A DNA stretch of 64,000 nt. Source: Kribbella sp. VKM Ac-2568 (GTDB lineage: Bacteria; Actinomycetota; Actinomycetes; Propionibacteriales; Kribbellaceae). Below, in pieces: positions 1,794-62,339 of the stretch. The position numbers and the translations under genes were made by a program. Position 1 is the stretch's first letter, and each line of letters starts with the position of its first letter. Below the pieces are notes generated by a model, which saw only the letters and a list, made by a program, of their open reading frames with translations, did not search any database and was not told the DNA's origin. The stretch covers positions 310,001 to 374,000 of the forward strand of contig NZ_SLVF01000005.1 in NCBI RefSeq assembly GCF_004345365.1, in the 5' to 3' direction.

Positions 1794-3437
1794 TCAGGAC
1801 GCGGTGACCGGAACGCCGGCGGGCAGCACGGCCTCGAACTCGCCGCGCATCTTGTCACCGCCGCCGGACTTCCAGCGCTTCAGCGCCTCGTCGTACGCGT
1901 CCATCTTCTGCCGGCCGGTGACGATGTCGATGATCGTGTCGCGGAACGCCTCGGTCAGCTTGGGTCCGACCTTGCTGCTGGTGTCGGAGTACGTGCCGGC
2001 GGTCGGGTTGCGCATCGCGTATTGCAGCAGCTTCTGCTCGGTCGCGTGCACCTTCCGGGTGTCCTCCGGATAGGCCGGGTTGAAGATCACGCTCTCCGGC
2101 GCGGTCATGATCTGCAGCGCGCTGACCAGACCGGGCGCCTGCTGGTTGCCGGCCTGGGTGAGCACCGGGTTCTTCTTGGCGTCCAGCGAGTACTGCTGGC
2201 CCGCGGTACCGAAGTTCTTCTGCAGGTACTCCTTGGTGCCGAAGGGCGCCGAGAGGTAGTTGACCAGGGCAAGGAGTTCGCGGATCCGGCCTTCGTCGGT
2301 CTTTTTGAACGGGGTGAACCCGACGGTGCCGTAGCCCATGTCGTAGACCGGCTTGGCCTTGCCGTCGTGGCCGAACGGGATCATCGTGTCGACGAACAGC
2401 GTCGGGTCGGCGGCCCGGAAGTCGGCGGTCGCCCGCGGTCCGACGGTGACCTGCGCGGCGATCTGGCCGTTCACCGTCTTCGGCGTCGCGTCGGCGAGGT
2501 TGAGGTCGGGGTAGAAGACCTTCGCCGCCCACAGCTTCGCGGCGTACTCGACCGCGGCCTTGTAGTTGTCGGTCTCGTAGAGGTGCGTCAGCGAGCGGTC
2601 CTGGTTGACCCGCCAGCTGTTCGGGGCGCCGAACCACTCGCCGAACATGTGCAGCATGTTCACGATCGCCGGCTCCAGCGCGTAGTTCGTGCCGCGGGTC
2701 AGCTCCTTGCACTTGGCAAAGAACTCGTCGGCCGTCTTGCACTGCAGACCGCCCACCTTGGCCCAGGTCTTAGGGTTGCCCATCATCACCTGGCCGAACG
2801 GCGTGGACGGGATCGGAGCGCCCCAGATCTTGCCGTTCACCACCGCGGTCCGCCAGGAGGCCGGCTTGAGCGCCGCGAGGTTCGGGTACTCCAGCACCGC
2901 GTCGCCGGCCAGGTACTTGGTCAGGTCCTGGAACTTCGCCTCCAGCATCGGGCCGATGTTCGGGATGCCCTGGTTCGGCGGCAGCCACATCAGGTCCGGC
3001 AGCGAGTCGCTGGCCAGCAGGGTGGCGAACTTCTCCGGGTAGCCGGGGTCGGTGCCGATGGTGAGCTTCAGGTCCGCGCCGAGCGCCTGGTTCAGCGCCT
3101 GCCACATCGGGTTGCTGCCCATCGGCGGCGGGGGCGTCGCGAACGTCTCGGTGAGCGCGGTCACCGCGTTCTTCAGCGGCGGCGCCTGCACGCTCGCAAT
3201 CGCGTTCTCGGGGAACTGCAGGAAGCCGGGCTCGAGACCGGACTCGGCGCCGGCCAGTTCGGGTCGCAGCCCCTCGAACGCCTTGTACGTCGGCAGTGCC
3301 ACGTCACTCGACGCCTTGGCGCCACCGCTCGCCGCGCCGCCGTCGCCACAACCAGCCAGCGTCGGGCCGAGAACGACCGCACCCAGCGCGGCACCACCCA
3401 GTCCCAGGAACCGCCTGCGCCCGTACCTGCTCTCCAT
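1794..3437 (-). CDS. Extracellular solute-binding lipoprotein of sugar ABC transporter
   Basis: High-affinity receptor that hands sugar to the two permeases downstream. The chosen ATG (3437) gives 547 residues. It is preceded by GGTGAGGTC and begins MESRYGRRRFLGLGGAALGA, a twin-arginine-like signal followed by a lipobox (LAGC, Cys about residue 30), so it is probably a Tat-exported lipoprotein. A longer reading frame begins 24 codons upstream but lacks a ribosome site. The size is large for a family-1 binding protein and matches the LplA/YtcQ class that pairs with LplB-like permeases. It is the first gene of the operon, and a LacI-type palindrome lies about 75 bases upstream of its start. Confidence 0.92.
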   Translation of the reverse strand: MESRYGRRRFLGLGGAALGAVVLGPTLAGCGDGGAASGGAKASSDVALPTYKAFEGLRPELAGAESGLEPGFLQFPENAIASVQAPPLKNAVTALTETFATPPPPMGSNPMWQALNQALGADLKLTIGTDPGYPEKFATLLASDSLPDLMWLPPNQGIPNIGPMLEAKFQDLTKYLAGDAVLEYPNLAALKPASWRTAVVNGKIWGAPIPSTPFGQVMMGNPKTWAKVGGLQCKTADEFFAKCKELTRGTNYALEPAIVNMLHMFGEWFGAPNSWRVNQDRSLTHLYETDNYKAAVEYAAKLWAAKVFYPDLNLADATPKTVNGQIAAQVTVGPRATADFRAADPTLFVDTMIPFGHDGKAKPVYDMGYGTVGFTPFKKTDEGRIRELLALVNYLSAPFGTKEYLQKNFGTAGQQYSLDAKKNPVLTQAGNQQAPGLVSALQIMTAPESVIFNPAYPEDTRKVHATEQKLLQYAMRNPTAGTYSDTSSKVGPKLTEAFRDTIIDIVTGRQKMDAYDEALKRWKSGGGDKMRGEFEAVLPAGVPVTAS

Positions 3438-12381: not shown

Positions 12382-13248
12382 ATGGCAGCGGCGTCTCGAG
12401 GTGGAACACCTCCCGCGGTCTGGCCGGTCGGGCGGGTCGCGGCCATGCTCGGCGTGCCCGCGGTGACGATCCGGAGCTGGGAAGCCCGCTACGACATCGC
12501 GCCCCCGACCCGCTCCCCTGGCCGCCACCGGCGCTACAGCAGCGAGGACATCGCCCGCCTGCGCCGCATGCAACGTCTGATAGCCGCCGGTACTCCGGCC
12601 GCCGACGCCGCGCGCCTCAGCGCGATGGCGCCCGACCAATCCGATCCGCCGCCTGAGCTACCAGCAGCAGAACAGGTCGCCGCGCTGCTCGCCGATCTGG
12701 AGTCCTTCCGGATCGACGAGGCCGGTGCGAAGCTGGACGGTTGCCTCCGGCAGCGCGGACTTCAGCCCGCCTGGGAGGACGTGGTCGCTCCGGCATTGCG
12801 GCGGCTGCAGGACCGCTTCCAGGACAGTGCCGACTGCATCGACCTCGAGACTCTGCTCGCCGACGAAGCTGCCCGCGCGGTCGATCGCTACACGGGCGGC
12901 CGCCTGCTCGGTGAGACCGCCGACAGCCCGGTGTTGCTCGCCTGCTGCCCCGGCGAACGCCACTGGCTGCCGCTCAAGGTCCTGCAGGGCGTCCTCCTCG
13001 AACGAGGTACCCCCGCTGTGCTGCTGGCCCCCGACCTGCCGCTCGACGCAGTACTCCGGGCCGCCCGCCGCGCCTCACCCCGTGCGGTCGTGCTCTGGTC
13101 GCTCACCCCGCGCCCGGCCCAGGCGATCCTGCGCCGTCGCCTCATCGCCCGCGGCGAGCAAACCGTCGCCGCCGGCCCCGGCTGGTCCCCCAAAGTCGGC
13201 CCCCTGACCCACTTGGACGACGCCGTCCACCTCCTCTCCCGCCTCTGA
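12382..13248 (+). CDS. MerR-family regulator with B12-binding-like domain
   Basis: 288 residues from the ATG at 12382. The HTH reads VGRVAAMLGVPAVTIRSWEARYDI, with the wing PGRHRRYSSEDIARL (about residues 15-55). A helical spacer follows, then a Rossmann-like domain whose CCPGERHWLPLKVLQGVLLERG (about residue 195) resembles the GE-x-H-x-x-G start of the cobalamin-binding domain of CarH/LitR photoreceptor repressors. The full DxHxxG B12 ligand motif is not seen, so cofactor binding is uncertain. It lies downstream of ltrA on the same strand. A role in light or stress sensing is inference from the family. Confidence 0.82.
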   Translation: MAAASRGGTPPAVWPVGRVAAMLGVPAVTIRSWEARYDIAPPTRSPGRHRRYSSEDIARLRRMQRLIAAGTPAADAARLSAMAPDQSDPPPELPAAEQVAALLADLESFRIDEAGAKLDGCLRQRGLQPAWEDVVAPALRRLQDRFQDSADCIDLETLLADEAARAVDRYTGGRLLGETADSPVLLACCPGERHWLPLKVLQGVLLERGTPAVLLAPDLPLDAVLRAARRASPRAVVLWSLTPRPAQAILRRRLIARGEQTVAAGPGWSPKVGPLTHLDDAVHLLSRL

Positions 13249-46087: not shown

Positions 46088-46303
46088 ATCCCCCCGACCC
46101 TGTCGACCGCCCGCTCCCTGCTCGAGCTGCTGTCGCCAGACAGGTCGGGTCGCGGGTGCTGCTGCCGATCGCCAGTCCCGCACAGTTAGGCCGGACCGCA
46201 CGCCCCAGGATCAGCCAGATCGGTACACATGTTACGTGAGGTCCACCGAATACCACCCGTAACGGGCCAGGCCGCTTCGGGCGGCTCGGTTCACGATGAT
46301 GGC

Positions 46304-47569: not shown

Positions 47570-47655
47570 ACCAGCGACACCCGGATCGGGTGATGCCGTC
47601 GGTCGAGCGCCGCGAGATGGTAGATCCCACGGCGCCACGAGGAAGTCTGGTGGGG

Positions 47656-50352
47656 ATGATGGATGCGATGCGATCTGCCGCGAGGGTCGCCGAGGGGGAC
47701 GCGGACGACCCTCTGCTGGCGGTGAGGTTTGCGATCCCGGGGCCTCCGAGGGCGTACGTCGAACGCCGGCGACTGACGGCGCGGCTGGATCGCGGTGCCG
47801 AGCTCCCGCTCACCCTGGTCAGCGCTCCCGCCGGCAGTGGAAAGACCGCATTGGTCGCCTCTTGGGCGACGAAGCGCCAAGCGCCCGGCGGCACGGGGTG
47901 GATCACCTTCGAGGAGCGGGATACGCCGGCCACGGCGTTCTGGCCGCACGTCCATGAATCGCTCCGCCAGCTAGGCGTGGCCCTGCCGGTCGCGCGCTAC
48001 GACACCCCGCGCGCACACTCCCGGATGCTCACCAGGCTCGCCGGTGCGCTCGCCGGGCAGACCCATCCGGTGACCCTCGTACTCGACGGCTACGAGCTCG
48101 CAACCACGGAGGAGTCGAACGATATCGACTTCCTCTTGCGACACACTGGTGAGCGCCTGCGGGTCGTGCTCCTGACCCGTGTCGACCCGGTGCTCCCACT
48201 GCACCGCTATCGGTTGGCCGAGATGATGACCGAGGTGCGGATGGCGGATCTCGCGTTCACCGAGGAGGAGACGTCGCGCCTGGTGCGGCAGTCGGGGATC
48301 AGTCTGAGCGCGACTTCGATCAGTGCACTCACCCATCGCACCAGAGGCTGGGCCGCGGGTCTGCGCTTCGCGAGCATGTTCCTCGAGCGGAGCCACACTC
48401 CGGACGAGGCCGTCGACCAGCTGGCCGGCGACACTGGCAACATCGCTGAATACCTCATGTCCGAGGTGCTGCAGACACAGCCCGGGCGGGTGCGGGCATT
48501 GCTGCTGCGCACCAGCGTCGTCGACGTCCTTCAGCCCGGGCTGATCGAGGAGCTCGCCGGACGGTCGGCAGGACGCACGCTCGCCTCGCTGGCACGGGGC
48601 AACATGCTTGTCGAGGCGCTGTCGGATCACCCTGGCTGGTATCGCTACCACCCTCTCCTGCGTGACCTCCTGCGCGCCGAGCTCGTCCATCGATCACCCC
48701 GCGGCCAGGTCCGCCTGCACAAGAAGGCCGCTCAGTGGTATGCCCGGCAGGGATTCCTCCGCTCCGCCGTGGGCCTGGCTGCAGCCGTCGGGGCTTGGAG
48801 CGATGCTTCGGCGTACGTCATCGACGACCTCGCCATCGGGAAGGTTCTGCTGGGCAACGACCCTAGCGGTCTGGACGACGACCTCAGGAAGATGCCTCGC
48901 GACGTCAAAGATCCCGCCGCGTCGGTCGTCAGGGCTGCGCTGGCGCTGGCTGACCACAAAACCGATCGCTGCGCGGAGGAACTGGGGCGTATCGGCGAGA
49001 CAGCTGCACCAGAGTCGGCCCACAGTCGCGCTGTCGAGCTGTCAGCCGACATCGTCGAGACCGTCAGATCAGGTCTGCTCGACGATCCGGAGACCGTCGC
49101 CCACGCCGACCTGGCGCAAGAGGAGCTCGGCAGGCTGGAGCGCGAGAAGGTCGTCGCACACCCCGAGCTGACCGCGCTCGTCCAGGCCAGCAAGGGAATG
49201 GCGCTGCTGCGCGACGGCAAGATCGACGATGCGCGGGAGTCCCTCGCGTCGGCGGCCCGCCTGCGGGCACCGGGATGTGACGCGTTGACGGTGTCGTGCC
49301 TCGGCTATCTGGCCCTGATCGAATCTCACCAAGGTCAGCTTCGTCGTGCCCAGGACTGGGCGTCGCAGTCGAGGTCCGTCGCCCAACAGACCGGTCTCCC
49401 GTCGGTGGGTTGGCCTCCGGCGGCAGAGATAGCTCTTGCCCTGGTGAGCGCAGAACGCTACGACCTCCGTGCCAGTCGCGAACACCTCAGAGCAGCACTC
49501 CGTTCGTACGACGTGAGCGAGGACCCGGTGATTCAGGCGTCGTCGGCCATCGTTCAAGCCCGCCTGCTCCGCGCCCGCGGGGAAGAGGATCAGGCGATCG
49601 ACCTGCTCGAGACGATCGGCACTCGATCGCAAGGCAAGGCCGGCTGGCCGGGCGAGATCCTCCAGCTCGAAATGGCGATGCTCAAGGTCGTGCGGGGCGA
49701 ACCCGAGGTCGCAGTGCGAATGATCGACCAGCCGAGTGACCGGGATGAGGCCAGCAGGTCGCTGGTCCTCGGTCACGCACAGGTGGAACTGGAAGACTGG
49801 GTCGGCGTGGAGAAGTCGGTGTCCGCGATCCTGGACCACGACGACAAGGAGATCCCGCTTAAAACCCTCGTGGGTGGGCGACTGCTGGAAGTCGCCTACG
49901 AGCTGCACCGTCGACAGCCAGGACGGGCGAGGATCGCGCTCAACCGCTCTCTGCGCCTTGCAGGCCCGGAGGACCTGCGCCGGCCGTTCCGTGAGGCTCC
50001 TCCGGCCGTCCGGCGATTCCTGGAAACCGATGCAGCGCCGTCCGATCAAAAGGCATTGCTCGGATCCGTTGTCGACTCCGGTCGCGAGGTTCTCACCCAG
50101 CGAAGCACTCCGGCGGGAAGTAGCACCAACGAGATGCGCGACGAGGGCTATCTCGCGCCACTCACGGTGAAGGAGCTGGAAGTGCTCGGTCACTTGTCCG
50201 AGTTGCTGACCACTGAGGAGATCGCGACGGTGATGTTCATCTCGGTGAACACCGTCCGTTCGCACGTCCGCAACATCCTTCGCAAACTAGCGGTCTCACG
50301 CCGGAACGAGGCCGTGCGACGTGCCCGTGATCTCAGCCTGATTCCCGGCTGA
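47656..50352 (+). CDS. LAL-type (MalT-like) LuxR-family transcriptional regulator 2
   Basis: 898 residues from the ATG at 47656 (GAGGAAG upstream); an ATG at 47593 is possible. The open frame to 46369 is a shadow inside the transporter gene. P-loop TLVSAPAGSGKTALVASWAT (about residue 55), Walker B VTLVLDGYELA, a sensor-type LTRVDPVLPLHRYRL, a long TPR-like middle, and the HTH LTVKELEVLGHLSELLTTEEIATVMFISVNTVRSHVRNILRKLAV. It is only moderately similar to regulator 1. It is 86 bases downstream of the transporter on the same strand. Confidence 0.92.
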   Translation: MMDAMRSAARVAEGDADDPLLAVRFAIPGPPRAYVERRRLTARLDRGAELPLTLVSAPAGSGKTALVASWATKRQAPGGTGWITFEERDTPATAFWPHVHESLRQLGVALPVARYDTPRAHSRMLTRLAGALAGQTHPVTLVLDGYELATTEESNDIDFLLRHTGERLRVVLLTRVDPVLPLHRYRLAEMMTEVRMADLAFTEEETSRLVRQSGISLSATSISALTHRTRGWAAGLRFASMFLERSHTPDEAVDQLAGDTGNIAEYLMSEVLQTQPGRVRALLLRTSVVDVLQPGLIEELAGRSAGRTLASLARGNMLVEALSDHPGWYRYHPLLRDLLRAELVHRSPRGQVRLHKKAAQWYARQGFLRSAVGLAAAVGAWSDASAYVIDDLAIGKVLLGNDPSGLDDDLRKMPRDVKDPAASVVRAALALADHKTDRCAEELGRIGETAAPESAHSRAVELSADIVETVRSGLLDDPETVAHADLAQEELGRLEREKVVAHPELTALVQASKGMALLRDGKIDDARESLASAARLRAPGCDALTVSCLGYLALIESHQGQLRRAQDWASQSRSVAQQTGLPSVGWPPAAEIALALVSAERYDLRASREHLRAALRSYDVSEDPVIQASSAIVQARLLRARGEEDQAIDLLETIGTRSQGKAGWPGEILQLEMAMLKVVRGEPEVAVRMIDQPSDRDEASRSLVLGHAQVELEDWVGVEKSVSAILDHDDKEIPLKTLVGGRLLEVAYELHRRQPGRARIALNRSLRLAGPEDLRRPFREAPPAVRRFLETDAAPSDQKALLGSVVDSGREVLTQRSTPAGSSTNEMRDEGYLAPLTVKELEVLGHLSELLTTEEIATVMFISVNTVRSHVRNILRKLAVSRRNEAVRRARDLSLIPG

Positions 50353-51240: not shown

Positions 51241-51357
51241 GGATTCACGCAGCAGGACGCAGTCGACAGGCTCGGCTGGAAGAAGACACGACTCAGTCTC
51301 ATCGAAACTCCTCCGAACCAGCGACGAATCTGGACGCTGATATCGGCAATCAGTTGA
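51241..51357 (+). pseudogene. Fragment of XRE-family HTH regulator
   Basis: A 38-residue fragment reading GFTQQDAVDRLGWKKTRLSLIE, which fits the helix-turn-helix of Scr1/HTH_31-type regulators (typical form: LTQEEAADRLGWSKSKLSRIE). No start and no C-terminal domain are present; the frame runs to TGA at 51355. It lies between the CPBP gene and the tRNA-like repeat. Confidence 0.6.
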
Positions 51358-51404
51358 GTAAGTTTGAGTTGGGCCTCTGAAGTTCATCACCCCAGAGGCA
51401 TACT

Positions 51405-51473
51405 GCCTGGCTAGAGCCGACGAGGGGACCCGAACCCCCAACCACCGCATTCTGAGCACTCGCCTTTCGTTGC
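51405..51473 (-). repeat. tRNA-3'-end-like repeat, copy A
   Basis: On the - strand it reads like an anticodon loop CTCAGAA, then GCGGTGGTTG, a TpsiC arm GGGGGTTCGGGTCCCCT, and an acceptor strand CGTCGGCTC. The 5' half of a tRNA is missing. It is about 85% identical over 69-71 bases to 61566-61636, in the same orientation. Likely an attachment-site relic of integration at a tRNA gene (inference). Confidence 0.7.
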
Positions 51474-51487
51474 GACCGACGACGGCT

Positions 51488-52207
51488 TCAGCGTCCAAAC
51501 GCCCAGGCCACCATCAGCGGGAACTCGGCTTGCCAGAACGGGTCGCCGTGGTTTCCGATCCGCTCGGTCATCACGACGTCCGCATCGGCATCTCGCAGTG
51601 CGTCCGCCCACCGGGTCGCGTTCTCGAGGAACCACGGCTCCAGCGTTCCGGCGACGAGGTAGGTGCGCGGAAGAAGGCTTGGCATCACGGCAGGCGGGCG
51701 GTAGCCGCCGCCGGGCGAGGCGGAGAAGACCGCGCCGTAGACGCCCGGATGCCGAAGCCCCATGGCGAGCGCGAGCTCTCCACTCGCCGACACCCCGCAC
51801 ACCGCAGTACGTTCGGCCGGCAACGCGACGCTGAAGCGCGAGCGCACCCAGCTGCGGACGTCCTCGACGAAGAAGCTCTCGTGGGCCGCGAACCGTTCCT
51901 GGTCGAACGTTGGTGAGTACTCGTGGATGCGCACCATCTCATCCTCATCGTCCGTGCGGTAGGCACCGACGATCATCGTGGGCGGTACGTCGGCCGCCTC
52001 GAGGTACCCGCCCCACTGCGAGATCAGCTGGCCGTCACCGGCGAATACGACTGCCTCAGGCGGATCCGGCGGCACGTACACCGTGACCTGCCGGCCGCCG
52101 TCGTACTCGAACGTCTCGGTGACGAGCTCTCCCGCTATCGGATCAGCACGAGCTGGTTCCGGCGCCGATCCGGCACCACCGGGGCCGACGACTGCTTGGT
52201 CATCCAT
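51488..52207 (-). CDS. Alpha/beta-hydrolase esterase (enterochelin-esterase-like)
   Basis: 239 residues from the ATG at 52207 (GAGGTG upstream). Nucleophile elbow TAVCGVSASGELALAMG (G-V-S-A-S), oxyanion/blade YVPPDPPEAVVFAGDG, acid/His region TYLVAGTLEP and RIGNHGDPFW. It resembles Fes/esterase D-like hydrolases. Soluble, no signal peptide. It is on the same strand as the TetR gene, 64 bases downstream. Confidence 0.85.
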   Translation of the reverse strand: MDDQAVVGPGGAGSAPEPARADPIAGELVTETFEYDGGRQVTVYVPPDPPEAVVFAGDGQLISQWGGYLEAADVPPTMIVGAYRTDDEDEMVRIHEYSPTFDQERFAAHESFFVEDVRSWVRSRFSVALPAERTAVCGVSASGELALAMGLRHPGVYGAVFSASPGGGYRPPAVMPSLLPRTYLVAGTLEPWFLENATRWADALRDADADVVMTERIGNHGDPFWQAEFPLMVAWAFGR

Positions 52208-52271
52208 TGGTCGCACCTCGACCTTTCATGGTCGTGACCCTTGCGAAGCGGGCCGCATCTGTGAGTTTGGA

Positions 52272-52925
52272 CTACGTGAGGCTGTTGCCTATGAAGGCCA
52301 GGGTGAGGGCCTCGATCCGGCGGAGCTCGGTTTCGGGGGCATCGCGGAGCGGGCCTTGGCCGGTGAGCACGGCGGTTCCGTGGACGACAGACCAGATAGG
52401 GTATTCGATGCCTTCGCGTCGTTGCGGATCGAGGACGCCGGCTTCCATTAGTTCGTCCAACGCGGCACGCAACAGCCCCAGAGGGGTGCGATCCGATTCG
52501 CCCTTCGCCTCGCCGCGGTCCGCGTAAGCATGCTGCTGCGGCACAGCGAACGCAGTTGCGAACAGGCCGGGTTCATCGTGGGCGAACTTCAGGTAGGCCG
52601 ACCCGATCGAGCCCAGCCGGCGGCGAGCCGCGACCGGGTTGCCGCGTTTGCCGCTGACACGAGCGATGTCCGCGGCCATGCGGTCGGCCAGCTCCTTCAT
52701 CGCCGCAGCGCAGACCTCGGCGAGTAGCTCGTCGCGGTCGGCGAAGTGCCGGTAGGCAGCGTTGGGAACGACGCCGACCATACGGGTGGCTTCGCGAAGC
52801 ACCACGGCGTCAGGCCCCCCGGTGCGAGCCAGTTCGACTCCGGCAGCGACCAGGCCCGCGCGTACGTCGCCACGCGGGCGTCGTCGCCGCGACCGTGGTG
52901 CTTCCTCTGCTGCCGCTTCGCCCAT
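52272..52925 (-). CDS. TetR-family regulator with WHG-type C-terminal domain
   Basis: 217 residues from the ATG at 52925. HTH: DAVVLREATRMVGVVPNAAYRHFADRDELLAEV. The C-terminal domain with GLFATAFAVPQQ and YPIWSVVHGTAVLTGQGPLR fits the WHG domain class. The divergent gene at 53015 encodes an epoxide-hydrolase-like protein. Two matching palindromes lie in the shared 89-base promoter region. Confidence 0.92.
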   Translation of the reverse strand: MGEAAAEEAPRSRRRRPRGDVRAGLVAAGVELARTGGPDAVVLREATRMVGVVPNAAYRHFADRDELLAEVCAAAMKELADRMAADIARVSGKRGNPVAARRRLGSIGSAYLKFAHDEPGLFATAFAVPQQHAYADRGEAKGESDRTPLGLLRAALDELMEAGVLDPQRREGIEYPIWSVVHGTAVLTGQGPLRDAPETELRRIEALTLAFIGNSLT

Positions 52926-52948
52926 GCTCACGCGGTCAGGATAACAAT

Positions 52949-52992
52949 GTGGACACCGTCCACTAAACCGAGCTAATGTGGACAGTGTCCAC
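52949..52992. promoter_or_regulatory. Twin TetR operators
   Basis: GTGGACACCGTCCAC (52949-52963) and GTGGACAGTGTCCAC (52978-52992) are 15-bp palindromes 29 bases apart, each in the context AAT...TAA. The second overlaps the promoter area of the hydrolase gene. Confidence 0.85.
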
Positions 52993-53014
52993 TAACTGTG
53001 AGGAAGGGCCTCTG

Positions 53015-54061
53015 ATGGAGGAGAAGACGAAGCCAGACATGCGCCGCGGCGATCTGGTGCGGGTGACCGCGGACGCCTGGTTCGCAGGCGGACAGCGGAT
53101 TTGGTACGACGCGACGTCTGCAGATGTACTGCCCGACGACGAGGCCGCCGCGAGACCCGGCGTACTGAAGGTCTTCGAGCGCACGACGACCGCAGGGACG
53201 GACGCTGACGCCGTGTGGCTGACGATGCTGCCCGGGTTTCCGGACGGTTCCTACGGCTGGGCTCAAGTGGATCGTCTGCTCCCCGCCGGGCTCGGTCCGC
53301 GGCTGTACGTCGAGCCCGTCGGTCAGGGCGATTCGGACAAGCCCAAGCGCTACCCGCATTCGACATACGGACGAGCCGATCTCGTCGAGGCCTTGTGGCG
53401 GCACCACGGCGTCGGTCGTACTGTCGTGGTCAGTTTCGACTACGGCTCGCTGACGCTGCTGGAACTTCTTCGCCGCCAGGTGGTGGAGCCTGATCGGATC
53501 GCGCCGTCGATCGCGGCGGGCTTCATGGTGAATGGTGGTTTGTTCGCCGACGCGCATTCGCACCCATGGCAGGGAACTCCGATGCTCAGGTCTCCGCTTG
53601 GTGCCCTTGGTGCGCGGGGTTCGCAACACTCGTCGGCGTCGTTCATCCGGGGATGGAAGCAGGCCCGGATGTACTCGCGCGACTACCACCCGAGCCAGAC
53701 CGAACTCGTCGAACTGTGGTCGGCATTGGTCCGCCGGGGCGGAGCAATGTTCCTCCATGACGGTGCCGGCTTCGTCAAGGAACATCGCCGCAACGCGACG
53801 CGCTGGAACTTGGCCGCGCTCGCACGAGAACTGAACGGCACGGTGCCGTTGTACGTCGGCGGCAGCGACGAGGACCCCTACGAGCATCGCCAGCTCACGG
53901 CGGCCCGCGAACGAGTACCCGAAGCCCAGATCATCACCTTCCCAGGCGGCCACCTGACCACCAGCGAGCACCCAAACCTCCTGGCCGATGCGATCACTGA
54001 CATCGCGTCCCGGCACGGAGTAGGCCCCGGTACGCCGACCGCAGACGAGACGAGCGTCTGA
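53015..54061 (+). CDS. Alpha/beta hydrolase (epoxide hydrolase/haloalkane dehalogenase-like)
   Basis: 348 residues from the ATG at 53015 (AGGAAGGG). Landmarks: TMLPGFPDGSYGWAQV (HGFP-type oxyanion turn, here LPGFP), YVEPVGQGDSDKP, and VVVSFDYGSLTLLELL, where the nucleophile is Asp in the S-F-D-Y-G elbow, as in dehalogenase/epoxide-hydrolase enzymes. The terminal His is in FPGGHLTTSEHP. The gene is divergent from the TetR gene and controlled by two palindromes. Confidence 0.9.
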   Translation: MEEKTKPDMRRGDLVRVTADAWFAGGQRIWYDATSADVLPDDEAAARPGVLKVFERTTTAGTDADAVWLTMLPGFPDGSYGWAQVDRLLPAGLGPRLYVEPVGQGDSDKPKRYPHSTYGRADLVEALWRHHGVGRTVVVSFDYGSLTLLELLRRQVVEPDRIAPSIAAGFMVNGGLFADAHSHPWQGTPMLRSPLGALGARGSQHSSASFIRGWKQARMYSRDYHPSQTELVELWSALVRRGGAMFLHDGAGFVKEHRRNATRWNLAALARELNGTVPLYVGGSDEDPYEHRQLTAARERVPEAQIITFPGGHLTTSEHPNLLADAITDIASRHGVGPGTPTADETSV

Positions 54062-54259
54062 CATGCGAGTCGCGGCGTCAATGCTCTTCTGCTGTGGTTG
54101 ATTTCCACGGGCTCGGAACATTTCGCCGCACGCCTTCAGATCCAGAACTTCTGGCCGGCGCTCATCGGTGGGGTGATCGCGACCACGGTCTCGCTCGTCC
54201 TGCACGCGGCGCTGCCGGCTGCCAAGAACTATCGTTCACTCACGGAGGAAATGGCATGA
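54062..54259 (+). pseudogene. Remnant of phage-holin-family (PF04020-like) membrane protein
   Basis: After the hydrolase stop the same frame continues with NALLLWLISTGSEHFAARLQ and FWPALIGGVIATTVSLVLH to a TGA overlapping the methyltransferase ATG. This is the C-terminal half of a small membrane protein of the PF04020 type (NALxLWL..., F-WPALIGAxVxSxVS...). The first 60 residues are missing and no start codon is usable. Confidence 0.65.
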
Positions 54260-55065
54260 ACGACACCGCAATTCCGTCCCAGTACGTGACGACGACGTCC
54301 CGGGCCGACATCGAGCAGGCCCTTGTTGCCGCAGGCAAAGACCTGGACAGGCTTCAGGCCGCAGATCTCGCGATGATGGAGGACTACCACACCGGCGGAC
54401 GAATCGCGACCGGGCAGCTCGTCGACTTGGTCGACATCACGCCGGACAGTGAGGTGCTGGACGCCGGCGCGGGCATCGGAGGAACCGCGCGCTATCTCGC
54501 AGCCCGTTTCGGGTGCGCAGTGGCAGCTGTCGACCTCTCTGACGAGTACTGCGAGACTGCCCGCTGGCTCAACCGTCTCGTAGGCCTGGATGACCGGATC
54601 GTCGTACGTCAGGGGGACGTGACCACGCTGCCCTTCGACGATTCCTCGTTCGACGTCGTGTTCAGCCAGCACGTCCAAATGAACGTGGCCGACAAGGACG
54701 GTCTCTATCAGGAGGCGAGGCGAGTCCTGAAGGCCGGCGGCCAACTCGCCCTGTGGGACATCACCGCCGGCAACGGACGCGAACTCGACTACCCGTTGCC
54801 GTGGGCCGACGTACCCGACCACACCCATCTCAGCACACCAGCAGCCGTGCGTGCCGCCATCGAGGCTGCCGGATTCACCGTCAAGCACTGGAGGGATTTG
54901 ACCGAGGAAGTCGGCACCATGATGCGAACGATGGGATCACTTCCACCCAGTCCGCTCGGGCTTCACGCGTTCGTCCCCAACTTCCGCGAGCGCGTGAAGA
55001 ACCTCAGCGAAGCCTTGACCGACGGCCGCCTTCAAGCCATCCAAGCGGTCGCCCTAGCACGCTAG
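54256..55065 (+). CDS. SAM-dependent class I methyltransferase
   Basis: 269 residues from the ATG at 54256 (GGAGG 8 bases upstream). The SAM site is VLDAGAGIGGTARYLAARFG (motif I), with AAVDLSDEYCETA, VRQGDVTTLPFDDSSFDVVFSQHVQMNV (motif II) and LKAGGQLALWDI. It resembles the small-molecule methyltransferases of the methyltransferase-11/sarcosine-dimethylglycine type. It ends near a hairpin. Substrate is unknown. Confidence 0.92.
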   Translation: MNDTAIPSQYVTTTSRADIEQALVAAGKDLDRLQAADLAMMEDYHTGGRIATGQLVDLVDITPDSEVLDAGAGIGGTARYLAARFGCAVAAVDLSDEYCETARWLNRLVGLDDRIVVRQGDVTTLPFDDSSFDVVFSQHVQMNVADKDGLYQEARRVLKAGGQLALWDITAGNGRELDYPLPWADVPDHTHLSTPAAVRAAIEAAGFTVKHWRDLTEEVGTMMRTMGSLPPSPLGLHAFVPNFRERVKNLSEALTDGRLQAIQAVALAR

Positions 55066-55097
55066 CCAGCGCGTCCGCCGCTGGATGGAGCCGAGGT

Positions 55098-55122
55098 GCC
55101 GCCGCCGGTGACCGGCGGCGGC
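55098..55122. terminator. GC-rich hairpin between convergent genes
   Basis: GCCGCCGCCGGT (55098-55109) and ACCGGCGGCGGC (55111-55122) are perfect 12-bp arms with a single centre base. It probably terminates transcription of the methyltransferase gene. Confidence 0.6.
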
Positions 55123-55271
55123 CCGGGGCGCAGTCGTCCGGGGCGATCGCCAACGGCATCCGGTCGTGGATCCGGCCGATACCGTCCGTCGCGGTGGGAT
55201 TCCCACCCACCTGGGCTGTGCCCTTGCCGAAAACAGCGCCCGCTATCCCGCCCGGCCGAGGCCGGTTGGGA

Positions 55272-56750
55272 TCAGTGCTCGGCGCCGGCTCGGGCGGTCT
55301 TGGGGAGCAGGAAGCCGACCGCGAAGGCGAGCAGGATCCCGCCGACGGTGGCGAGGAGCGCCGCCTGGGTGCCGTCGAGTGCGGCCAGGGCGCGGGTCGC
55401 GGGCGTGGCGTGGGCGACCTTGCCCATGAAGATGGTGCCGATCACCGCGATACCGAGCGCGATACCCACCTGCTCGAGCGAGCCCAGCATTCCCGTGGCC
55501 GAGCCGACCTCCTCGTCCCGGACGCCGCTCAGGATGATGTCGAACAGCGGGACGAAGACCATGCCCATACCGGCTCCGCCGATCAGGTTGGGGACCACGA
55601 GATCCCAGTGCCCGACGTTCAGGCCGGTCAGCGCCAACACGCCGTACAGTCCGATCAGTCCAGTCGCCATCAGCGCCAGGCCGATGTGAAGCAGCTTGCG
55701 ACCGTACTTCTGCATCGCGATCCCGGAGACCGCCGAGCCGATCAGCGCCCCGAAGGCCCAGGGCGCCATCGCCAGGCTCGCGCGGATCGGGGTGTAGCCG
55801 AGGCCGACCTGGAGGAACATGCCCAGGACGAACGTGCCGGCCATCGCACCGAAGAAGACCACCGCGAAGAGCACGCCGGACAGGTACGAGCGGCTCCGCA
55901 GCAGCCGCGGCTCGATCAGCGGGGTCGCGCCGCTGCGCTGCCGGCGGGACTGGTAGACACCGAACCCGGCGAGCACCGGTACCGAGGCGACCAGCAGCGC
56001 CTTCGACCACAGCGGCCAGCCGATCTCGTGACCCTGCACCAGCGGGTAGACGAGGGCAACCAGGCCGGTGCCGGCGATCAGCAGTCCGGGAATGTCCAGC
56101 GAGATCCGGCGGCCAGTGGGCCGGGAGTTCGGCAGGTACTTGGCCGCGACGATGAAGGTGAAGATGCCGACCGGGATGTTCACCAGGAAGATCGCCCGCC
56201 AGCCGGTACCCATCAGGTCCGCGTCGAGCAGCGTGCCGCCGACGATCGGGCCGATCACCGCGGACAGACCCATCACCGGACCGAAGAACCCGAACGCCTT
56301 GGCTCGCTCGCCCGGTTCGAACAGGTCTCGGGCCAGTCCGAAGCCCTGCGGCAACATGATCGCGGCGAACGAGCCCTGGGCCACGCGCGCGGCGATCAGC
56401 ATCTCCGACGACACCGCGAGGCCGCACAGGAACGAGGTCACGGCGAACCCGCCGACGCCGATCAGCAGCGCCTGCTTCCGGCCGACCAGGTCACCGAGGC
56501 GGCCGCCGACGAGGAGCAGGACGGCCAGAGCCATCGTGTACCCGGCGGCCATCCACTGAAGGCTCGCGTAGGAGCCGCCGAGGTCGGCGCGTATGGCGGG
56601 GGCGGCGACGTTCATCACAGTCGAGTCGAGCAGGTCCATCACCGACGCGCTGATGACCGCGGAGAAGGCGAGCCAGCGCTTGCGACGGCGCCGCGGGGCG
56701 GCCTCGACGGCGGCGGCTGCGCTGCGGGGGAGTTCTACGACTGCGGTCAT
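55272..56750 (-). CDS. MFS multidrug transporter, DHA2 (EmrB/QacA) family
   Basis: About 492 residues with 14 helices. ASVMDLLDSTVMNVAAPAIRADLGGSYASLQW is the DHA2 motif D1 with the LD-S-T-xNVA pattern, and GGRLGDLVGRKQALLIG is the loop motif A. It begins at an ATG at 56750 or 56753, both near GGAG; the longer frame from a TTG at 56792 is rejected since it overlaps the operator. It is divergent from a TetR gene, a common efflux arrangement. Confidence 0.93.
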   Translation of the reverse strand: MTAVVELPRSAAAAVEAAPRRRRKRWLAFSAVISASVMDLLDSTVMNVAAPAIRADLGGSYASLQWMAAGYTMALAVLLLVGGRLGDLVGRKQALLIGVGGFAVTSFLCGLAVSSEMLIAARVAQGSFAAIMLPQGFGLARDLFEPGERAKAFGFFGPVMGLSAVIGPIVGGTLLDADLMGTGWRAIFLVNIPVGIFTFIVAAKYLPNSRPTGRRISLDIPGLLIAGTGLVALVYPLVQGHEIGWPLWSKALLVASVPVLAGFGVYQSRRQRSGATPLIEPRLLRSRSYLSGVLFAVVFFGAMAGTFVLGMFLQVGLGYTPIRASLAMAPWAFGALIGSAVSGIAMQKYGRKLLHIGLALMATGLIGLYGVLALTGLNVGHWDLVVPNLIGGAGMGMVFVPLFDIILSGVRDEEVGSATGMLGSLEQVGIALGIAVIGTIFMGKVAHATPATRALAALDGTQAALLATVGGILLAFAVGFLLPKTARAGAEH

Positions 56751-56770
56751 CATCGACTCCAAGCTCGAAC

Positions 56771-56815
56771 GGAACGAACTGTTCTGTTCCAACTCTAGCG
56801 GAACAGAGCATTCCG
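56771..56815. promoter_or_regulatory. Twin operators of the TetR/MFS divergent pair
   Basis: GGAACGAACTGTTCTGTTCC (56771-56790) and CGGAACAGAGCATTCCG (56799-56815) are inverted repeats built of GGAAC/GTTCC half-sites between the transporter and the TetR gene. Confidence 0.75.
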
Positions 56816-56837
56816 TTCAAGTGGTAGGCTGGGTGAC

Positions 56838-57473
56838 ATGACGAAAGCTCTCAGTGGCCGGAAGGCGCAGGCGGCCCGCAACGACGAAGTGATCCTGGCC
56901 GCCGCCCGGGCGGTGTTCATCGCCGATCCCGGCGCCCCGATCTCCGCGGTGGCGGAGCGCGCGGGTGTCGGCATCAGCGCGCTCTACCGGCGGTACGCGA
57001 GCAAGGAGGAGTTGCTCCGCAAGCTCTGCAGCGACGGGCTGGCCCGGTACATCGAGGAGTCGGAGAAGGCGCTCGCCGACGACCGCGAGCCGTGGGTTGC
57101 GTTCGGAGCGTTCCTCCAGGCGCTGGTCGACGCTGACACCAACTCACTGACCCAGCGGCTGGCGGGAACGTTCACGCCGACGCCAGACCTCTGGCAGGAC
57201 GCCGCCCGGGCGGCTGAGCTGAACCAGGCCATCTACGCGCGGACGAAGGAGCACCTCCGGCCGGGGATCGTGGTCGAGGACTTCGGAGTGATCCTGGAGC
57301 AGATCACGTCGATCAAGCTCGGCGACGAGGCTCGGACGAACCAGCTCCGGCATCGGTACCTCACCCTGATGCTGGAGGCGATGCACCGGCCCGGGGAACG
57401 ACCGGGCGGCGGTTCGGAACTCCCGGGACCGCCGCCTAGCAATGACGAACTGACCGACCGCTGGCGGGCCTGA
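56838..57473 (+). CDS. TetR-family regulator of the MFS efflux pump
   Basis: 211 residues. The HTH is AVAERAGVGISALYRRYASKEELLRKL. The C-terminal helices are of the TetR_C_33-like kind. The ATG is 88 bases from the transporter's start, and the interval contains GGAAC/GTTCC palindromes, so it likely represses both genes and responds to a compound exported by the pump. Confidence 0.92.
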   Translation: MTKALSGRKAQAARNDEVILAAARAVFIADPGAPISAVAERAGVGISALYRRYASKEELLRKLCSDGLARYIEESEKALADDREPWVAFGAFLQALVDADTNSLTQRLAGTFTPTPDLWQDAARAAELNQAIYARTKEHLRPGIVVEDFGVILEQITSIKLGDEARTNQLRHRYLTLMLEAMHRPGERPGGGSELPGPPPSNDELTDRWRA

Positions 57474-57666
57474 CTGGTGGGGCGGCCGAGTCAAGGAGGT
57501 GCTCGTTCCCCGCGGTCGGCACGGTGAAGGGCCAGAGTTCGGCGGCGGAGATCTGTTTTGTGCCCTTCGCAGGTCGGACCGGTTAGGCTCCGGCTTAGGG
57601 CGCCGGGCGCAATATGCTTTCGAGGAAGTACCGCCCCTGGCTTTGCTGGACATCAAGGGGGATCGC

Positions 57667-58041
57667 ATGACGGAACCGTCCACAGGCTGGCAGCTCGACG
57701 CCATCACGTACTCCGGAGGCACGCAGGACGGGCCGCGCGCCAACGTGAAGCTCTCCCGGGCTGGTGAACCGGTGCACGGTGAGGGTTCTGGCACCGGGCT
57801 CATCGACGCGGTGTGCCATTCGATCTCGCTGGCGACGGGCGTGGAAGCGCGGGTAGTCGCGTTCCGGGCGTACTCAGTCGGCCCGGGCAGCGAGGCTGTC
57901 GGAGAGGTCGAGCTCGAGGTGGAGCTGCCGGGCCGCAGGGTTGCGGTCCGGGCGTCGTCCTCGGATGTCGTGGAGGCCGCCGGGCTAGCCCTCGTCGCGG
58001 CCCTCAACCAGTACAACGCGAAGCGGCCGGCACGAGGCTGA
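57667..58041 (+). CDS. Free-standing LeuA regulatory (allosteric) domain protein
   Basis: 124 residues from the ATG at 57667 (AAGGGGATCGC). The body matches the leucine-binding C-terminal domain of 2-isopropylmalate synthase (PF08502): VHGEGSGTGLIDAVCHSIS, ARVVAFRAYSVGPGSEAVGEV and DVVEAAGLALVAALNQYN. No synthase TIM barrel is attached, and none is visible nearby. It could regulate or titrate a synthase, or sense a branched-chain amino acid in another role. The longer open frame upstream is rejected. Confidence 0.82.
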   Translation: MTEPSTGWQLDAITYSGGTQDGPRANVKLSRAGEPVHGEGSGTGLIDAVCHSISLATGVEARVVAFRAYSVGPGSEAVGEVELEVELPGRRVAVRASSSDVVEAAGLALVAALNQYNAKRPARG

Positions 58042-58338
58042 GTCCAGTGAGCTGACCGTGGTCCGATGAGCGCGAGCGCCGCCGCCCGCTGCGGTGGGTG
58101 AGTCCCAGGACTGTGGCTCGGTCGGGACCGGCGGAATGCGGCAGATGAGTGCGGTTGCGCTACTCGCAGCCGGTGGCAGGGCGGATGATGTCCGCGAATA
58201 GGGGACATGGCGCCTGCGCGGGGCCGAACGGCGGAGGTCCCGTGAAAACTCTTGCCGATAGCCTGTCGGATCCACCGGACGCCGTTCGTAGCGTAGGTGG
58301 AGGCGGACAGCGGGTCCGCCCGAGCCGAAGGAGCAGAC

Positions 58339-58698
58339 ATGCCCGAGTACCTCATCTACTTCAACCAACAGTGGGTGGGTGAGCACACCGAGGAGTGGTT
58401 CCGCGGGCGCGGGCCACTCGCCATGGCGGTCGTGGACGAGATGAAGGCTGCCGGCGCTTACGTCTTCGCCGGAGGGCTGGAGGAGGAGGACGGCCCGGTC
58501 TACAGCGCCGACCCCACCAGTGGCGACGTGTTGATCACCGACGGACCATACGTCGAGACCAAGGAGTTTCTGGGCGGGTTCGCTCTGGTGGACGTGGCCG
58601 ATGACGAGGCCGCCAAGATGTGGGCGGGCAAGGTCGCGGAGGCATGCGGTTGGCCGCATGAGGTTCGCCGCTTCAAGCCGCAGCCTCAGGCCAAGTGA
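58339..58698 (+). CDS. YCII/DGPF-family protein
   Basis: 119 residues from the ATG at 58339 (AAGGAG). MPEYLIYFNQQWVGEHTEEW, DGPVYSADP, VLITDGPYVETKEFLGGFALVDV and the His/Arg end VRRFKPQP match YciI-like (DGPF) proteins. Family function is unclear; these often accompany SigX5/ECF41-type sigma factors, two of which are 18 kb away. No neighbour shares its strand closely. Confidence 0.9.
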   Translation: MPEYLIYFNQQWVGEHTEEWFRGRGPLAMAVVDEMKAAGAYVFAGGLEEEDGPVYSADPTSGDVLITDGPYVETKEFLGGFALVDVADDEAAKMWAGKVAEACGWPHEVRRFKPQPQAK

Positions 58699-58867
58699 CT
58701 CCATCGCCCGGCTCGGTCCAAAATGGTGAGGAACATCGGCGCGGCTCTCTTGCGTGCTGTATGGACCACCAGCAGCAGTACCTCGCGAAGAAACCTCGTT
58801 CGGGTACCACTGCCACGCCAACACCGGGCGTGCGCTTCTCCGAGACCGCCTGACGCCTAATGGTCGA

Positions 58868-58914
58868 CCGCGATCTCATCGTGGAACGGCTGCCGTTCCA
58901 CGATGAGATCGCGG
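58868..58914. repeat. Perfect 22-bp inverted repeat with 3-base loop
   Basis: Left arm 58868-58889 and right arm 58893-58914 are exact reverse complements, beginning CCGCGATCTC and ending GAGATCGCGG, separated by CTG. No T-run follows, and no gene ends here, so a terminator is not obvious. It could be a DNA- or RNA-level hairpin of a mobile or regulatory element. Confidence 0.95.
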
Positions 58915-59156
58915 AATGCTCGGAACTCGAACCGTCGCAGCTACTGACGTCTCTGGCGTTCGTTGGACACCTGTCGCTGAAGATGCGGCGTAGTGCATAC
59001 ATCGACATGGTCGTCGCCGCGGGCGTGCGCATCCGCCGCTTGCCGAGCGCGCGTGGTCTCGGCAGCGCAAAGACCTGACCGATCGGTTCCCCGACGTCGC
59101 CGCGGCGGCGCCGCAGGATTCGCGTCCGCGGAGGCACCGAGGCGGGATCTCGACAG

Positions 59157-59199
59157 ACGTTGGGAGCAGGGACTTTGCGCACATCCCAGCTCCCAACGT
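59157..59199 (-). terminator. Hairpin 3' of the beta-propeller gene
   Basis: 11-bp arms ACGTTGGGAGC / GCTCCCAACGT close a 21-base loop that contains an inner GGGA/TCCC pair. It begins 7 bases past the stop of the - strand gene. No clear T-run. Confidence 0.6.
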
Positions 59200-59205
59200 G
59201 CTGTC

Positions 59206-61314
59206 TCAGGTGCGACGGACAGCGAGACCGTCGATCTGGTAAATCTTGCCGGTCACCCTGGTGGTGAGGAGGACCGACCCGGTCAGGAAGGTCGCCGGCA
59301 CCGGGAGCGGCACCACGGCTTGGTACTCGGTCGTCGCCTTGTAGAGGTTCACCACGCCCACGTACTTGCCGTTGTAGTAGACGTTCAGGCTGCCGCAGGT
59401 CACGCATTTCGTTGCGATCAGGAACAGCCGCTTCGCCTGCACACCTTGGGAGACGGAGATGCTCTTCGCCTTGGTGACGGTCGCGGTTCCGAGGTAGTAG
59501 GCGGGATGGGCTGCCCGGACCCAGCCCTTGGCCGCGCCCATCCGGCGGTCGTCCGACGGTCGGGAGAAGCACTTGTCGGCGGTCCAGGCCGACAGGTTGC
59601 CGGCGATGTCACGCGCCCGGACCGACACGCAGTACTCGTAGCCCGCGGCAACGCCGATCGCCACGGAGCTGGCCGTCGTACCGGACTTGATCGTGGCGTA
59701 GGCGCCGAAGTTCGCCGCGGTGGACGCGATCCGCCACCGGACGTCGTACGAGCCGATGCCGCTGTTATCCGTCCCGGAGTAGGTGACCCTCGCGGTGGCC
59801 AGCTTCGTCACGTCGAACGTCGGTCCCGTGATCCGGACACTCGGCACGGCGGTGTCGACGGTCAGCCAGCGGACAGCTTCGGTACCGCGTCCGCCGGCCT
59901 CGACGGCCCAGACCCGCAGCACGTGCGTGCCGGCCGCGACACCGGCTTTCTGGAACGGCGATGCCGGGCATGGCGCCGTCTTCACACCGTCGAACTCGCA
60001 GCTCACGTAGGGATTTGCCAGTCCGGTGGTGTCGAAGGGCACCGACAGATTCGGCCCCACGGCAGCCGCGGTCGGCTTGATTGTGATCCGCGGGCCCTGC
60101 CAGACGGCCGACTCGACCAGTTCCCCGGCCGGCGGGTCGAACAGTTGCGCGTTCACGTACGGTCGTCCGTCGTTGACCGGCACCTGCTGGAGGGTGCTTC
60201 CGCTCTCTGTTCGACGAGCGACGAGCAAGAGGTTGGATCTCGCCCAACTGATCGACTCTCCACTCGTACCGAACGGGTAAGCCGGTACGGGAGTGCCGCC
60301 ACCGACCGGGATCACGTTCACCGAGGTGTTCTTGAAGTAGGCGATCCACAGACCGTTCGGTGACGCGACCGGGTGCTGCGCCAACTCGGTACCGGCGTAG
60401 GTGGTCAGGACCACACCGCCGGCCTTTGCCTGGACGCGTTGCAGCTTCCCTGTCACCTGGTCCTTGACGATCAGCGCCTGGTTGTCGGGCAGCCAGGACG
60501 GCGCGGCCAGGTTGCAGCCGACCCGGATCGGTGCGCCGCCGGTCGCACCGATGACCTCGACACAGGAGGTACCGTCCTGTTCCCGTTCGAAGGCGATCCG
60601 GGTGCCGTCCGGGGACCAGGACTTCGCCGTGATCCCACTCGACCCGTCGAGGATCTTCACCGGCTGGGCGTGCGGGACGACCGCCGAGACCGTCCACAGG
60701 CTCGTCTTGGCCTGCGAGAAGACGACCTGCCGCCCGTCGGCCGACGCCGCGATGGCCTTGTCGACCTGCTGCGTCGGGCCAGAGGCGGCGATCGGAATGA
60801 CGTGGGTTGCCCCCTGGACGGCGATCTGGCCGAGGAACGTGCGGCTGACGCCGCCTGTCGTCACGGTGTGAGCGACGGTGATGGCATCGGTCGGGTCGGC
60901 GACAGTGGCACCCGGTACGGTGTCGGCCGGGCCGGGAGTGCTGGACGGTCCCTCACCGTCGGCGTTCACCGCAGCGACGGAGTACGTCGCCTTGGGGAGC
61001 CGCTCGGTGTCCTGCCAGGTGAAGGTGGTGACCGCCGTTCGCGGCACGGTGTAGGCGGTCTCGGTCCCGTTCACGGACCGGCGAACGACGAAGCCGGTCA
61101 CCCCGTCGACGGTCCCTTCGTCCGCCGGAAGGTTCCAGGCCAGGTCGATCCCGGTGAAGGTGCCCTTCACTCGCACCCCGAGCGGCACCGACGGAACCGA
61201 CGCCGCCTGCTGGGTCGACGTGGTGAAACCGGTGACCGCCGTTGCCGGGACAGCCGCAGTCAGGAAGACGGCCGACAGAGCCATCGGCGTGGCGAAGCGC
61301 AGGAACGTGCGCAA
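59206..61314 (-). CDS. Secreted fibronectin-III / PD40 beta-propeller protein
   Basis: 702 residues with a Sec signal peptide (MRTFLRFATPMALSAVFLTA, cleavage near AVPATA). A fibronectin-III-like domain follows (VPLGVRVKGTFTGIDLAWNLP ... GFVVRRSVNG ... YSVAAVNADGEG), then a TolB/PD40-like propeller (AASADGRQVVFSQ, SWSPDGTRIAFER, ASPNGLWIAYFK), and a C-terminal Ig-like region plus a final domain with KCVTCGSLNVYYNGKYVG. It is probably cell-surface or secreted and binds polysaccharide or protein. It stands alone. Confidence 0.87.
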   Translation of the reverse strand: MRTFLRFATPMALSAVFLTAAVPATAVTGFTTSTQQAASVPSVPLGVRVKGTFTGIDLAWNLPADEGTVDGVTGFVVRRSVNGTETAYTVPRTAVTTFTWQDTERLPKATYSVAAVNADGEGPSSTPGPADTVPGATVADPTDAITVAHTVTTGGVSRTFLGQIAVQGATHVIPIAASGPTQQVDKAIAASADGRQVVFSQAKTSLWTVSAVVPHAQPVKILDGSSGITAKSWSPDGTRIAFEREQDGTSCVEVIGATGGAPIRVGCNLAAPSWLPDNQALIVKDQVTGKLQRVQAKAGGVVLTTYAGTELAQHPVASPNGLWIAYFKNTSVNVIPVGGGTPVPAYPFGTSGESISWARSNLLLVARRTESGSTLQQVPVNDGRPYVNAQLFDPPAGELVESAVWQGPRITIKPTAAAVGPNLSVPFDTTGLANPYVSCEFDGVKTAPCPASPFQKAGVAAGTHVLRVWAVEAGGRGTEAVRWLTVDTAVPSVRITGPTFDVTKLATARVTYSGTDNSGIGSYDVRWRIASTAANFGAYATIKSGTTASSVAIGVAAGYEYCVSVRARDIAGNLSAWTADKCFSRPSDDRRMGAAKGWVRAAHPAYYLGTATVTKAKSISVSQGVQAKRLFLIATKCVTCGSLNVYYNGKYVGVVNLYKATTEYQAVVPLPVPATFLTGSVLLTTRVTGKIYQIDGLAVRRT

Positions 61315-61565
61315 AGGGAACCCCCAGAAGTCAGAGCGGCAGAAAGATGGCCGCGCCCCCCTATCGGCTACGGCAGCCGAACGTTACATCGGCAGCTCCG
61401 CACCTTTAGGCGACCCGGATGGCGGTCCGAGGCCGCCGGCGCGCGATGCCGTGTGGGCGCCGTCTGAACCGTCTGCACTATCGCCCTGTCGAGCGTCGCC
61501 TTCCTGTGCCGGCTCTGCCCGCCATTGACAGACCGTCTGCGATCCCGGCTACAGGGAGTAGTAAC

Positions 61566-61636
61566 GCCTGGTCAGAGAGCCGACGAGGGGACTCGAACCC
61601 CTAACCACCGCTTTCTGAGCCCAGGCCTCTCGTTGC
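61566..61636 (-). repeat. tRNA-3'-end-like repeat, copy B
   Basis: On the - strand the sequence has the loop CTCAGAA followed by AGCGGTGGTT, TpsiC arm AGGGGTTCGAGTCCCCT and acceptor strand CGTCGGCTC. The CCGCT needed to form the anticodon stem is absent upstream, so the tRNA 5' half is missing. It is better preserved than copy A. A decayed DUF932 gene begins about 150 bases away. Confidence 0.75.
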
Positions 61637-61785
61637 CTGCCATCAATCCGCACAAGCACTCATGACCTGGGCTTATGCCTAACCGAGCATGTCGCCGACG
61701 CTCAAGAATTCTCACTCTCTGCCGCTGATTCACGTGAGTTAAGACGTGAGTGCCCCCGCGGGTCCGGTGTGCGCCAAGACGCCCT

Positions 61786-62339
61786 CGAGTAACCGGCGAC
61801 GACCGGTCGTTCCTCGTCCGTACCTTCCGTGGAGCGAGGGCTCCGGGCTGGCCCGGGCCGCTGCTGTCGGACAAGTTCAAGCTGATCGACAACCTGGACG
61901 CCCTCACCGCGACCCTCGACGGTGTCCGCGCTGCCGGCGTACCGATCGACATCCGAGGTTGCGACCTGACCCGACTCCCGCATGTGCGTCCGGATCCAGG
62001 CCGAAGAGGTTGCAGCGTTCGCACCCTAGCTGCTGAAGGGCTACCGCTCACGGTTCACCGGCGCCACGGCGCCACCGGCGCCACCGGCGCCGAAAACCCC
62101 ACCGTGTTCGCCGGGTTCATCATCTCCCGCAGCGAGGTCGGCGCGGAGCGTTCACCATCACTCCCCATCTGGTCGTGCAGGTCTGCGTCAACGGCATGAC
62201 GATCACCAAGGACGTACAGCGCGCCGTGCACGTCGGCAGCCGGGTGGCCGACGGACTGATCCGGTGGTCCGACGACGCCCGCGAGAAGGAGATCGCCCTC
62301 ATCCGGGCGCGCACCAAGGATGCACTGGGTTGTCGTTGA
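61786..62339 (+). pseudogene. Decayed DUF932 gene (plasmid/phage-type), several frameshifts
   Basis: Consecutive pieces in different frames fit DUF932: LLSDKFKLIDNLDALTATLD and GVRAAGVPIDIRGCDLT in frame one; MCVRIQAEEVAAFAP-stop-LLKGYRSRFTGA in frame two; ENPTVFAGFIISRSEVG back in frame one; FTITPHLVVQVCVNGMTITK and RWSDDAREKEIALIRARTKDAL in another frame. At least one stop codon and three frameshifts. DUF932 genes are typical of plasmids, phages and integrative elements, fitting the nearby tRNA-like repeat. Confidence 0.8.

Follow-up and report, generated by a model that had tools for sequence, protein, structure and literature searches.

Two tRNA 3′-end-like repeats in Kribbella sp. VKM Ac-2568 as probable att junctions in a tandem array of integrative elements at tRNA-Thr(UGU)

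Actinomycete integrative and conjugative elements (AICEs) are defined by modules encoding an integrase, an excisionase, RepSA and FtsK (PMC3218068), and their accretion and decay have been described (PMC9513070). In Streptomyces and Frankia, such accretion takes place at tRNA genes, as seen for Sav3708/Sav3728 in tRNA-Arg and Fean5518/Fean5534 in tRNA-Lys (PMC9513070; PMC3218068). Furthermore, tRNA-Thr is an insertion hotspot of ICEs and AICEs in Streptomyces (PMC6722414, Fig. 3; PMC9513070), a genus in which gain and loss at the scale of genes have also been documented (PMC6722414). In Streptococcus salivarius, CIMEs are found in tandem with ICEs/IMEs, and the most decayed blocks are located farthest from the target gene (PMC7563491). 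The locus described here is a genomic island of this known kind, present in a Kribbella soil bacterium.

The window, meaning the whole stretch of 64,000 nt that was analyzed, is part of contig C5 of Kribbella sp. VKM Ac-2568 and contains two repeats, A and B. An earlier note, made from the sequence alone, had claimed that these are two tRNA-3′-end-like copies in the same orientation about 10.2 kb apart. This was confirmed, as A and B form a direct repeat (51413-51473 and 61576-61636) on the same strand with a spacing of 10,163 bp. The similarity, given before as about 85% over 70 bases, was measured as 89% identity over 61 nt. On the reverse strand both copies correspond to the tRNA from position 37 up to its 3′ end, in line with the claimed extent from the anticodon loop to the acceptor without the 5′ half. 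Within the window, no intact tRNA was predicted by ARAGORN and no Rfam family reached the threshold. The features of the window are summarized in Table 1.

Table 1. Features of the island and of block A-B, with positions in the window.
Feature	Position	Strand	Basis and remarks
Left border of island	3364..3400	.	Backbone common with congeners ends here (window 3362-3364)
Integrase relic by A	51241..51309	+	Xre-type HTH piece of AICE integrase, 65% over 23 aa, tblastn E 5e-4 (short match)
Integrase 3′ end remnant and att-adjacent arm	51310..51411	+	103 nt at 90% to corresponding region beside copy D
att copy A	51413..51473	-	Diverged 3′ part of tRNA-Thr(UGU), core 33/36 versus intact gene, then ~20 nt element arm
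Cargo module 1, putative esterase (CDS 51488-52216)	51479..52261	-	PF00756; 92% identical to unlinked loci in three congeners
Cargo module 2, TetR regulator, alpha/beta hydrolase and methyltransferase	52272..55076	.	Pfam; 77-85% identical pieces in G032, G009
Cargo module 3, divergent MFS transporter and TetR regulator	55252..57490	.	Pfam; 91-95% at other loci in three congeners
Cargo module 4, stand-alone LeuA dimerisation domain gene (CDS 57667-58041)	57511..58146	+	PF08502
Cargo module 5, YCII-family gene (CDS 58339-58698)	58156..58751	+	PF03795
Cargo module 6, PD40 repeat protein	59206..61335	-	PF07676; 84% identical in G002
att copy B	61566..61636	-	61566-61614 (49 nt) 100% identical to intact tRNA-Thr 3′ part and 3′ flank, then element arm
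Left arm of next element	61617..62040	.	86% over 427 nt to arm beside copy C; also beside C10 copy

A search of the 8.9-Mb genome of the strain itself revealed five same-strand copies of the repeat on C5 with E-values from 9e-16 to 7e-47, located at 361.4 (A), 371.6 (B), 408.2 (C), 442.3 (D) and 464.05 kb, all of them within 103 kb. The fifth copy corresponds to the 3′ half of a tRNA-Thr(TGT) gene that is intact (C5:464057-464130, minus strand; ARAGORN) and located outside the window, which answers the earlier suggestion to look for the intact tRNA elsewhere in the genome. A and B are ~103 and ~93 kb away from this gene and are the two most distal of at least five junctions. That A and B are att copies stands, while the notion that they bracket one self-contained element near its tRNA does not. 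The 36-nt core is complete (36/36) in B, C, D and tRNA-Thr, and A, the copy farthest from tRNA-Thr, is the sole one changed inside it; as background, no other same-strand site exceeds 23/36, and among 200 shuffled probes the highest score is 27/36. On C5, the stretch from 313 to 361 kb yielded no extra att copies above the shuffled background.

An alignment of all copies showed that A to D match tRNA-Thr from position 37 to the 3′ end. C and D match the tRNA-Thr locus well past the 3′ end (D has 58 nt in common with it at 100%), and in A and B this match is shorter or contains changes. Upstream of the core, the isolated copies read CAGAAAGCGG (A: CAGAATGCGG) and tRNA-Thr reads TGTAAAGCGG, so that CAGA is present in the isolated copies where the anticodon region of tRNA-Thr reads TGTA. 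Since all four isolated copies have element sequence and not that of the tRNA upstream of the core, they are predicted to be element-element junctions of a tandem array; they carry the element half, as expected for attP-like junctions between tandem elements. A truncated repeat copy is located on C10 (C10:35735-36429) together with ~700 nt of left arm of the B/C type (90%), and may either stem from insertion at a secondary site or be the broken end of a related element located elsewhere. Independently of this array, tRNA-Ala(TGC) has a diverged 3′-end copy ~0.7 kb downstream (C6:181456-181480 and 182154-182186), which probably represents a further small att scar.

Directly left of A, C and D, integrase remains are present in the same orientation as the intact gene described below. 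They comprise 164 aa at 62% beside C and the 3′ end of the gene beside D. The relic beside A, which is also 81% identical at the DNA level to 64 nt of the integrase fragment adjoining C, has the same orientation and place relative to its att copy as the intact gene. Therefore, the debris that had been noticed just outside A is real and is this relic, and the search for an integrase pseudogene succeeded at three copies. The debris is explained as the terminal part of a decayed element located left of A; it belongs to that element and not to block A-B. These arms and relics also bear on the idea that the copies are tRNA pseudogenes which arose when tRNA-Thr was duplicated in the ordinary way, without involvement of mobile elements. 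The missing 5′ half and the fact that the copies are not predicted as tRNAs would fit such an origin. However, the same non-tRNA sequence begins at the same breakpoint in all copies, the sequence past the tRNA 3′ end is common to them as well, and next to the copies there are integrase ends or element arms. The shared arms and the integrase relics contradict duplication, which is considered highly improbable.

The block between D and tRNA-Thr harbors the intact integrase. This tyrosine integrase of 490 aa (C5:462558-464030; PF00589 and PF22022) ends 27 bp from tRNA-Thr and is convergent with it. It is preceded by an HTH_17 excisionase (62 aa), RepSA (PF20199, E 1.5e-148) and an FtsK/SpoIIIE-type transfer protein of 278 aa (PF01580, E 4e-18). 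With an integrase beside att, RepSA, an FtsK-type protein and direct-repeat att sites, one of them in a tRNA gene, the block has the gene set of an AICE and is, as predicted from its genes, a complete AICE and the sole complete block of the array. Its cargo (C5:442387-454491) includes a type II restriction-modification pair, a Fic protein, a NACHT-type protein with a possible role in defence, and purC (SAICAR synthetase). An excisionase-like match at window 12421-12576 was rejected, as it corresponds to a MerR regulator.

Within the integrase, an Xre-type HTH (PF13560, residues 332-394) is inserted between the catalytic boxes. A profile built from 22 relatives of the genus matches solved integrases outside the HTH, among them 6en0 ‘Int protein’ and 1z1b ‘Integrase’, and inside the HTH region it matches the Xre regulator of ICEBs1 (7t8i). 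The predicted structure (mean pLDDT 76.6) displays five helices at residues 328-401. The family retains the catalytic R, H-x-x-R and Y, and the usual second His is mostly Gln. As a conjecture, the inserted Xre domain may allow the integrase to bind its own arm or promoter sites. A literature search yielded no description of such an HTH insertion in an integrase; as evidence of absence this is weak.

Relatives of this integrase are present in 33 of 38 Kribbella genomes, one of them in the Kribbella steppae record NZ_SLWN01000003.1, and tRNA-Thr(TGT) or tRNA-Lys adjoins the integrase in the majority of the 30 best loci. In seven genomes with a collinear arrangement, the distance from tRNA-Thr to the left backbone, obtained by subtraction of positions, amounts to 12.9 (G011), 23.4 (G010), 34.9 (G002), 43.4 (G007), 82.8 (G012), 111.7 (G005) and 150.7 kb (Kribbella sp. 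VKM Ac-2568). G003, G004, G008 and G009, in which backbone and tRNA-Thr have other relative orientations or distances, were left out. Additional tRNA-Thr 3′ copies are found on the same side of the tRNA in G002, G004, G007, G008, G010 and G012. In the genomes with inspected flanks, no fully empty tRNA-Thr site was found, and the gap was never below 12.9 kb. According to this genome comparison, tRNA-Thr is an insertion hotspot in the congeners. The earlier note had named as a counter-argument one block syntenic in all relatives and without a tRNA match; what was found is a variable hotspot with tRNA-Thr as the matching gene. Roughly a dozen or more Kribbella genomes lend themselves to a comparison of this hotspot, which opens a view on the decay of AICEs into att-bounded remnants.

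In Kribbella sp. VKM Ac-2568 the island comprises ~151 kb, and its left border is at 313.4 kb on C5. No att copy was found at this border, which suggests that the outermost junction has been lost or was made another way. Since the island starts near window position 3.4 kb, most of the window is inside it; this affects how the other genes of the window should be read. Left of A, for example, LuxR-type ATPase regulators (window 43400-46201 and 47629-50352) flank an MFS transporter, with Pfam support for the second regulator and the transporter.

Taken together, A and B are very probably att junctions of integrative elements that target the 3′ end of tRNA-Thr(UGU), located in a tandem array in which block A-B is a CIME-like remnant. 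The att-copy interpretation of the earlier note is supported by the intact tRNA-Thr, the adjoining intact integrase, the relics at three copies and the hotspot in congeners. Mechanistically, a tyrosine integrase of the AICE type would recombine the attP of an element with the 3′ half of tRNA-Thr. The incoming element would supply a replacement 3′ end and push the old one outward as a copy, which would explain why tRNA-Thr stays intact. Repeated integration would then stack at least four att-bounded blocks in tandem, preceded on the left of A by one more decayed element. The blocks have sizes of 10.1 kb (A-B), 36.6 kb (B-C), 34.0 kb (C-D) and 21.7 kb (D-tRNA). If accretion was followed by decay as in described AICEs, the oldest blocks would be those farthest from tRNA-Thr. 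Two puzzling repeats thereby become a readable stack of insertions, with the att copies giving the boundaries of the blocks.

Block A-B is flanked by att copies in direct orientation. Comparison of the proteins of the intact element with 361.5-371.5 kb of C5 and Pfam analysis of the main called genes revealed no integrase, rep or tra gene in it, and the arms left inside the block amount to ~20-25 nt at A and ~11 nt at B. It is best read as a putative att-bounded, CIME-like remnant, that is att-flanked and without mobility genes of its own, in which the genes for integration, replication and transfer would have disappeared along with almost all arm sequence, so that gene-sized cargo remains. 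We infer that it was once an element of the AICE family of the tRNA-proximal integrase, as we infer the order of insertion and excision. The missing integrase, rep and tra genes and the short arms make its descent from a specific AICE putative only.

Alternatively, block A-B might be a CIME that is still mobile and is excised by recombination of A with B through the integrase of the neighboring AICE. This would fit the core kept at A and B and the apparently intact integrase within the array, and tandem and decayed AICEs have been reported or proposed to move in this way (PMC9513070, PMC3218068). Nevertheless, A differs from the tRNA-Thr core at 3/36 positions and both arms are almost gone, so that the arm sites for integrase and excisionase are probably missing. 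Present mobility of the block is considered unlikely.

The cargo consists of six unrelated modules, which bears out the earlier statement that the block holds unrelated short operons. Composition does not mark it, as had been proposed for checking: its GC content is 67.6% versus 68.1-68.5% in the backbone, and its tetranucleotide distance of 0.117 is the top of the backbone range. As a whole, block A-B is present in no relative among the 38 genomes searched, own genome included. The six modules match congeners at 77-97%, at different unlinked loci and with abutting borders. The MFS/TetR module is found in six different contexts in six congeners, and G026 has this module but nothing else of ~15 kb in common with five congeners. 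In the own genome there is an empty site (C18:49668-49760) at the place where G026 holds the module, which fits either direction of movement. Module borders are 0-20 nt from stop codons at 6/8 gene ends. In a seven-copy alignment of the MFS/TetR module, homology stops at the two stop codons and no shared terminal motif is apparent by eye. An integron cassette array was rejected for the cargo, since gene orientations are mixed and no repeat family is present at the module borders. As a separate observation, the LeuA allosteric (dimerisation) domain gene has no synthase part and has relatives in several congeners.

In the simplest reading, the cargo was gained as small units on many independent occasions, and selection trimmed these to the coding unit. 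A further possibility is that A and B are true att junctions and the 10-kb block was never one transferred element, its original cargo having been lost and single genes of the accessory pool of the genus inserted one by one. The scattered nearest relatives of the modules with their abutting borders, the six contexts of the MFS/TetR module and the empty site on C18 speak for it. On the other hand, an element may acquire such genes before it integrates, and the gains are undated relative to integration. Piecemeal filling is therefore given a little less than an even chance. A more far-reaching idea is that att-bounded blocks gather single transcription units by an unrecognised, genus-wide relocation of gene-sized units, for which the island would be one sink; it is based on modules that are bordered at stop codons and differently placed in each species, and is regarded as quite improbable. 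Elsewhere, about a dozen pieces of 0.2-1.3 kb in G044:C5:471001-486000 match unlinked loci of the own genome at 80-96% while the core flanks remain collinear, and accessory genes are seemingly shuffled singly between Kribbella species.

With respect to the known systems, the preferred reading of A and B as junctions of an accreted array places the locus closest to the AICE arrays of Streptomyces and Frankia. Both consist of tandem elements split by direct repeats of a tRNA 3′ end, with intact, defective and remnant elements adjacent to each other and with RepSA, FtsK, a tyrosine integrase and an excisionase. In contrast to these arrays, the target in Kribbella is tRNA-Thr(UGU), at least five junctions are spread over 103 kb, and no block other than the tRNA-proximal one is complete. 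Block A-B resembles the CIMEs of S. salivarius (PMC7563491), which are att-flanked cargo without recombination or transfer genes and follow the same decay gradient. However, the latter derive from ICEs/IMEs of Firmicutes, and cis-mobilisation of block A-B is putative only. As in the Streptomyces hotspot, different elements are located at a tRNA-Thr gene in different strains; here the genus is another one, and the likeness is one of target type.
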